64,000 nucleotides of DNA. Source: Candidatus Avimonas narfae. GTDB lineage: Bacteria > Bacillota > Clostridia > Oscillospirales > Acutalibacteraceae. Below are positions 32,414 to 34,126 of the stretch, in pieces (position 1 is the stretch's first letter; each line of letters opens with the position of its first letter). The position numbers and the translations under genes are program-made. The notes under the pieces are model-generated. The model saw only the letters and a program-made list of their open reading frames with translations. It was not told where the DNA came from and ran no database searches. The DNA is taken from NCBI GenBank assembly GCA_904395335.1, contig CAJFNR010000067.1:1-64000 (forward strand). Direction: 5' to 3'.

Positions 32414-32644
32414 CTAACGCGTAAGAAAATATTGCCTCCCCTGTTCCGCATCGGCAAAGGTGGGAGTATCACCCCAAATATAGCGCGCTGCCTCTTCCCA
32501 CTGCGCCGCCGAATAGCTGTCGGCGGAAAGGTGGCGAACCGCCTGAACCACTTTAACGCGTTTATTCTGCAAATGGAGATCGGATAAGTACTGACAACCG
32601 GTCTGTGCCGCCAGATCATCCAACAATTCCCTTTTCTTTTCCAC
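32414..32644 (-). CDS. Small conserved-type protein of unknown function
   Basis: A 76-residue soluble, helical protein (RELLDDLAAQTGCQYLSDL, then WEEAARYIWGDTPTFADAEQ). It resembles short uncharacterised proteins of gut Clostridia in style, but I cannot name a family. The start is a GTG at 32644, with AGAGGA about 14 bases upstream, which is a weak arrangement. It lies 84 bases after the 58-residue gene on the same strand and may share its promoter. Confidence 0.55.
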   Translation of the reverse strand: MEKKRELLDDLAAQTGCQYLSDLHLQNKRVKVVQAVRHLSADSYSAAQWEEAARYIWGDTPTFADAEQGRQYFLTR

Positions 32645-32727: not shown

Positions 32728-32904
32728 TCAGATGCTGTCTTTTCTGTCAGGGGATCCATCCTCTTGGGAGGTAAGCATCACCGACTGCGCAAAATCCAGA
32801 GAGCGCAAAATGTTTAGGGCGCTTTCCTGTCCTTTGTCACTGAGAGACAGAAACAGCGTATTGAGTTCAGCAACTTTTTGGGCTTGTTCCTTTGGCTGTG
32901 TCAC
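32728..32904 (-). CDS. 58-residue protein related to the C-terminus of the divergent XRE regulator
   Basis: The start is GTG at 32904, 8 bases after GAGAGGGG, and a predicted promoter lies at 32941-32969. The helical product contains FLSLSDKGQESALNILRSL and a following DFAQ. This matches the XRE protein's FQSLRPEFQDFALQQIRQL and AELQ without a gap at F, S, L, Q, A, L, R, L and Q (9 of 23 positions). No DNA-binding domain is present. It may be a partner or antagonist of the regulator; that is an inference. Confidence 0.65.
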   Translation of the reverse strand: MTQPKEQAQKVAELNTLFLSLSDKGQESALNILRSLDFAQSVMLTSQEDGSPDRKDSI

Positions 32905-32927
32905 AAACTCGTCCCCTCTCTCTATAT

Positions 32928-33023
32928 GTGTTATAAACTCAATATAACACGAAACTAACCATCTGTCAACACAATTAACAAATAAAACCTGTGTTGACAG
33001 CATGTGTTTTCCTATTGTATGAT
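32928..33023. promoter_or_regulatory. Symmetric divergent promoter with two inverted repeats
   Basis: Plus strand: TTGACA (32994-32999), 18 bp, TATGAT (33018-33023), for the XRE gene. Minus strand: TTGACA (32969-32964), 17 bp, TATATT (32946-32941), for the 58-residue gene. Both -35 boxes lie in the arms of CTGTCAACACA-N16-TGTGTTGACAG (32963-33000). A second palindrome GTGTTATA-N7-TATAACAC (32928-32950) covers the minus-strand -10. These are good operator candidates for the XRE protein. Confidence 0.75.
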
Positions 33024-33055
33024 ACAGGTATGCCAGAAAGAAGGAGGTGCCGCGT

Positions 33056-33400
33056 TTGGACAACCGAATCCGCATGGTACGAGAAGCGCTGGAGCTTTCC
33101 CAGCGGGAATTTGGCGAACGGCTGGGTGTCAGCCGTGACGTGATCAGCAATTTGGAATACGGACGCGTCCAACCCAAAGAACTGGTGATCAAACACATCT
33201 GCGATCTGTACGGCGTCAATGAACAATGGATAAAGGACGGGAACGGTCCTATGTTCTCTTCTCCTCCGCGAAACAACAAAAAGCTGGAGGAAGCTGTGAG
33301 CATTTTTCAATCCCTTCGGCCCGAATTTCAAGATTTTGCCCTGCAGCAGATCCGTCAGCTGGCTGAGCTTCAGAAAAAAACAGAAGGGCTAGATTTATAA
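33056..33400 (+). CDS. XRE family transcriptional regulator
   Basis: A 114-residue repressor-type protein with an N-terminal lambda-Cro/CI-like helix-turn-helix (LSQREFGERLGVSRDVISNL), a segment LYGVNEQWIKDGNGPMF typical of phage-type XRE proteins, and a C-terminal helical part (about residues 75-110). The start is TTG at 33056, 6 bases after AAGGAGGTG; a GTG inside that site is not a credible start. It is divergent from the 58-residue gene over a symmetric promoter, so it is probably autoregulated. Confidence 0.88.
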   Translation: MDNRIRMVREALELSQREFGERLGVSRDVISNLEYGRVQPKELVIKHICDLYGVNEQWIKDGNGPMFSSPPRNNKKLEEAVSIFQSLRPEFQDFALQQIRQLAELQKKTEGLDL

Positions 33401-34049: not shown

Positions 34050-34126
34050 TGGTCCGAGTGACAGGAGTCGAACCTGCGGCCTCTTGAACCCCATTCAAGC
34101 GCGCTACCAATCTGCGCTACACCCGG
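34050..34126 (-). tRNA. tRNA-Pro (anticodon GGG)
   Basis: The 77-base minus-strand sequence folds as a cloverleaf. The acceptor stem CCGGGTG/CACTCGG includes one G-U pair; the D arm contains AGCGCAGATTGGTAGCGC; the anticodon loop ATGGGGT between CTTGA and TCAAG gives GGG; the T arm contains GGTTCGACTCC. The discriminator is A and the CCA end is encoded. It reads CCC codons. Confidence 0.96.

Follow-up and report, generated by a model that had tools for sequence, protein, structure and literature searches.

In the analyzed window, a 64,000-nucleotide stretch of the Candidatus Avimonas narfae genome, we find two divergent genes that are likely to form a self-antagonizing switch, in which an XRE repressor would be antagonized by a divergently encoded copy of its own hairpin. 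The regulator gene (33056-33400, + strand) starts with TTG behind the Shine-Dalgarno sequence AAGGAGGTG and encodes a 114 amino acid XRE (Cro/CI-type) protein, in which matches to HTH_31, HTH_3 and HTH_19 exceed the curated cut-offs and indicate that a Cro/C1-type HTH domain is present. The second gene (32728-32904, - strand) starts with GTG and encodes a 58 amino acid protein, the putative free hairpin. An earlier sequence-only reading of this DNA had placed the two open reading frames at these positions and both were found there; their divergent starts are separated by 151 bp and the whole module is ~670 bp long. A longer ORF of 191 amino acids (32728-33303, - strand) was considered as the true small gene and rejected, because conservation begins at the MTQ of the 58 amino acid frame. 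The small protein gave no match in Pfam or PHROGs and no significant match in NCBIfam and therefore has no recognizable DNA-binding domain, in agreement with the sequence-only reading.

The proposal of a switch started from 9 identities over 23 ungapped positions between the XRE C-terminus and the small protein. This count is exact, and the match is only modestly unusual: when the small protein is shuffled, the best 23-residue window reaches 9 identities in 0.9% of trials (p = 0.009), and pairwise BLASTP of the two proteins gives no alignment. When family profiles are compared, residues 6-43 of the small protein align with residues 72-109 of the XRE protein over 38 ungapped columns (probability 78; E = 1.8e-5, which counts for one single comparison), and an HMM of the small proteins matches the XRE C-termini at L018, L022 and L021 with E values from 1.5e-4 to 2.2e-3. 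Five positions that are invariant in both families coincide, with an offset of 66 throughout (E13/E79, F18/F84, L21/L87, L30/L96 and L36/L102). The AlphaFold2 models, which rest on shallow alignments, show helices at residues 3-20 and 23-48 of the small protein (pLDDT 96-97 across residues 11-40) and at residues 75-86 and 89-110 of the XRE protein, within the C-terminal hairpin (residues 72-110; 33269-33385, + strand) that carries the profile match. The helix break is in register in the two models, since 20/23 in the small protein and 86/89 in the XRE protein are the same aligned position. From the profiles and models, the small protein is predicted to be the XRE hairpin alone, minus the DNA-binding head. 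A Foldseek search with the 58 amino acid model returned nothing meaningful.

This arrangement has a close precedent which the sequence-only reading left unnamed, the SinR-SinI pair of Bacillus subtilis, where an XRE repressor with a C-terminal two-helix hook is accompanied by a ~57 amino acid protein that is mainly the same hook (PMC3163267). SinR residues 74-111 and SinI residues 3-39 assemble as a mixed four-helix bundle of core residues conserved in both, SinR DNA binding is lost upon formation of this bundle, and sinI is under Spo0A control (PMC3163267). As in SinR-SinI, core residues are common to the repressor and the small protein in our families, and the same architecture of a free helical hairpin that matches the repressor's C-terminal hairpin is present. 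A Foldseek search with the XRE model lists the SinR/SinI structure 1b0n at rank 21 (E = 0.04). The SinI family model PF08671 matches neither the small protein nor the XRE C-terminus at E values up to 10, nor any of 9 family members, and hhalign of the small family against SinI gives nothing. The positive controls, SinI and SinR sequences confirmed by their PF08671 matches, gave E values of 2.5e-13 for SinI and 1.6e-12 for SinR at residues 74-100. Since PF08671 matches both SinI and SinR and neither protein of our locus, we describe the locus as having a SinI-like architecture with no detectable SinI family member; the likeness is architectural, with no detectable sequence relation. The gene order differs as well, since the two genes here are divergent and share operators, whereas sinI and sinR are encoded on one strand, with sinI upstream.

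The sequence-only reading had made its proposal depend mainly on whether the two genes stay paired in relatives, and the pairing held: the small gene is found nearby in 18 of 19 XRE relatives, 16 times intact and divergent, once degenerate (L026, where the small gene has an internal stop and the XRE gene is broken) and once downstream of the XRE gene in a tail-to-tail orientation (L025). The relatives were gathered with the XRE protein as the only query and the small gene was not used, therefore the pairing test is free of this bias. The count covers L012-L023, L025, L026, L045-L047, L074 and L075, with the window left out and repeats counted once; the sole relative lacking the small gene is L022, whose XRE is identical to that of L044. 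Because close kin are included (L012/L013 and L045/L046) and a single genome contributes both L018 and L021, fewer than 19 of these cases are independent. Clostridia, Paenibacillus and Lysinibacillus harbor XRE relatives at 61-75% identity, and viral contigs and a Bacillota sample supplied further ones. The genes that flank the pair differ at almost every locus, and thus the conserved unit is the pair together with the DNA between its genes. The distribution is patchy for both families: among sampled genomes, 3 of 391 from the window's class and 3 of 201 from a Paenibacillus family yielded the small family, and 5 of 398 from the phylum yielded the XRE family. Plasmids gave no match to a Paenibacillus small protein used as query, and for a scan of viral sequences the alignment of the small proteins offered no sufficiently conserved stretch.

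In the small gene, most changes are at the third codon position (positions 1, 2 and 3: 3, 0 and 10 between L012 and L013; 7, 5 and 21 between L015 and L021), and this sequence pattern indicates that the gene is under purifying selection. The distances of the small proteins and of the XRE proteins correlate (r = 0.75-0.79), a value not reached in any of 5000 permutations. One explanation of the likeness between the two proteins is that it arose by chance, or that the small gene is a functionless duplicate left over from the XRE C-terminus. The pairwise likeness is indeed weak, with no BLASTP alignment and a shuffle p of 0.009, yet the conservation across classes, the purifying selection and the profile match at E = 1.8e-5 speak against this explanation, which we regard as highly improbable. 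Chance resemblance was rejected on the profile match and the shuffle test, and a functionless remnant on the third-position codon pattern.

The DNA between the genes is itself conserved. In an alignment of 12 intergenic sequences from Clostridia and Bacilli, 35 columns are invariant, and 17 intergenic regions contain 78 GTGTT/AACAC half-sites where 6.5 are expected from shuffles. An operator-like palindrome, GTGTTNNNAACAC, recurs in these regions at near-constant spacing, and four sites keep roughly constant offsets from the small gene start across loci (O1 ~24, O2 ~56, O3 ~87 and O4 ~107 bp); O1 and O2 are of the palindrome type, whilst O3 and O4 are half-sites. In the window, O1 (GTGTTATAAACTC, 32928-32940) adjoins the -10 element of the small gene and is included in the inverted repeat GTGTTATA/TATAACAC (32928-32950). 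O2 (32960-32972) overlaps the -35 element of the small gene; in relatives it is a full or nearly full palindrome, GTGTTGTCAACAC, located 32 bp from O1, and in the window the left half is missing and only the right half, AACAC, is kept. O3 (TGTGTTGACAG, 32990-33000, + strand) lies over the -35 element of the XRE gene and forms an 11-bp perfect inverted repeat with 32963-32973, and TGTGTTGAC is invariant in the 12 aligned regions. O4 is poorly conserved and has decayed in the window. The two predicted promoters, TTGACA-17-TATATT for the small gene (32941-32969, - strand) and TTGACA-18-TATGAT for the XRE gene (32994-33023, + strand), each match the consensus at 11 of 12 positions and stand back-to-back, with O1 and O2 on the small-gene promoter and O3 on the XRE -35. 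At L022 and L044 an O1-type site (GTGTTATATACAC) is kept and an apparently unrelated ORF of 158 amino acids occupies the place of the small gene. Divergent back-to-back promoters with shared operators are also the layout of the lambda-type cI/cro switch; unlike in that switch, the opposing protein here lacks a recognizable DNA-binding domain, and its action would be through contact with another protein.

The most likely mechanism is that the XRE protein oligomerizes via its C-terminal helical hairpin, binds the GTGTTNNNAACAC operators in the shared region and represses the small gene strongly and its own gene probably more weakly, as would be expected from the full palindromes on the one promoter and the half-sites on the other. 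Small protein in excess would then pair with the XRE hairpin and remove functional XRE oligomers from the DNA, and their loss would relieve repression at both promoters, a double-negative feedback that is possibly bistable. We infer the binding of the XRE protein to these sites, the mixed oligomers, the direction of the effect and the bistability. The sequence-only reading regarded the small protein as a free copy of the regulator's oligomerization segment; this fits the hairpin likeness, the core residues, the purifying selection and the operator region, and the interpretation as a whole is partly supported. The hairpin likeness alone leaves the direction of the effect unfixed, and further points against the mechanism are the incomplete O2 of the window, the poor conservation of O4, the missing operator enrichment in 12 genomes, and the two relatives that depart from the divergent pairing (L022/L044 and L025). 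By analogy with SinR-SinI, the small protein probably removes the XRE protein from DNA-binding oligomers. Another option is that it serves as a co-repressor or redirecting partner, so that mixed oligomers bind DNA more tightly or recognize different sites. Such a role rests on the same hairpin and pairing evidence, and small phage co-repressors are known, such as P1 Lxc and the dual-role TP901-1 MOR (PMC11323111). Yet the small protein has no recognizable DNA-binding domain and SinI, the closest architecture of known mechanism, is an antagonist (PMC3163267), and we consider a co-repressor unlikely.

Antagonism of the XRE neighbor can also be compared with phage systems. The fold search returns 9sf2 and 9iaq, PDB entries which, according to their titles, hold AimX and the arbitrium phage repressor, again a small antirepressor on an XRE-type repressor. 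When PDB sequences were searched with the profile of the small family, AimX chains were absent from the matches up to E = 10, and no arbitrium genes were noticed among the neighboring ORFs on reading by eye. In phage TF-smORF modules, too, a smORF antirepressor is transcribed divergently from the gene of an XRE-type regulator (PMC10432266); there, however, the TF activates the smORF, which inactivates a separate cI (PMC10432266), whereas here the small protein resembles its neighbor. These modules raise the hypothesis that the XRE protein controls the small gene and that the small protein targets another repressor or protein. The published antirepressors directed against another repressor (PMC10432266), together with the relatives in viral contigs or near recombinase-like ORFs, would favor such a target, but in the predicted oligomerization segment the small protein is similar to the XRE protein encoded next to it, the loci are mostly in unrelated chromosomal settings and no separate repressor partner was identified, which makes this hypothesis quite unlikely in our view. 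The recombinase-like ORFs, recognized by eye, are of the tyrosine type at L012 (2204-3364) and L013 (2237-3364) and of the serine type at L023 (1895-3427) and L047 (3779-5338), and suggest that the pair sometimes moves on integrative elements.

In the window, the pair is surrounded by ABC permease, DegV, GntR and PTS genes, and in two genomes of the same genus these neighbors are only 51-53% identical or are missing. The small gene is followed on its strand by an ORF of 76 amino acids (32414-32644, - strand), homologues of which are present in 5 of 60 genomes of the family, its own genome included; at other loci this ORF showed no linkage to the pair. A tRNA-Pro gene (ggg; 34050-34126, - strand) is located ~650 bp past the XRE gene, separated from it by a stretch that encodes little, and could be the mark of an old integration site. 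A search for further operators in 12 genomes showed no enrichment (30 sites, against 36 for a reversed control pattern), therefore no output beyond the pair is visible, and neither target genes nor an inducer were found. The only exact TGTGTTNNNAACACA palindrome in the organism's own genome is at L078 1501-1515 (G000:C4:70200-70214), ~50 bp upstream of an ORF of 148 amino acids, which has a hydrophobic N-terminus and a similar ORF adjoining it. As a regulon site this palindrome was rejected, being indistinguishable from chance.

Other XRE subfamilies in the same loci also carry divergent small ORFs behind ribosome-binding sites. In several cases (L025 3020-3685, L048, L053, L103, L065, L117 and L006) such an ORF resembles the C-terminus of its own XRE neighbor. 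With partners chosen by rule in 21 clusters, the XRE C-terminus resembles its cognate small partner more than others (p = 0.0015), compared with p = 0.23 for the HTH part as a control. In only three of the 21 clusters is the top match the cognate partner, and thus a minority of subfamilies accounts for the effect, which is a lead, not a result. An earlier test on hand-picked pairs (p = 0.00035) was biased and was for this reason set aside and replaced by the rule-based one. Judging from these sequence comparisons, other XRE subfamilies may show similar cognate mimicry. We hold only tentatively the broader idea that divergent mimicry of a repressor's own oligomerization hairpin is a recurrent principle of Firmicutes XRE regulators, cognate-specific in several subfamilies, with SinR-SinI as one example and this locus as a second, conserved one.

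The locus would thus represent a second, sequence-distinct lineage of SinI-like self-antagonizing switch, common to Clostridia and Bacilli, and at ~670 bp the module is compact enough for a test in a laboratory strain. Should the signal of cognate mimicry across other XRE subfamilies hold, many unannotated ORFs of 40-70 residues opposite XRE repressors would gain a predicted function and a partner, and the ORFs explained in this way would lie in prophages and integrative elements.
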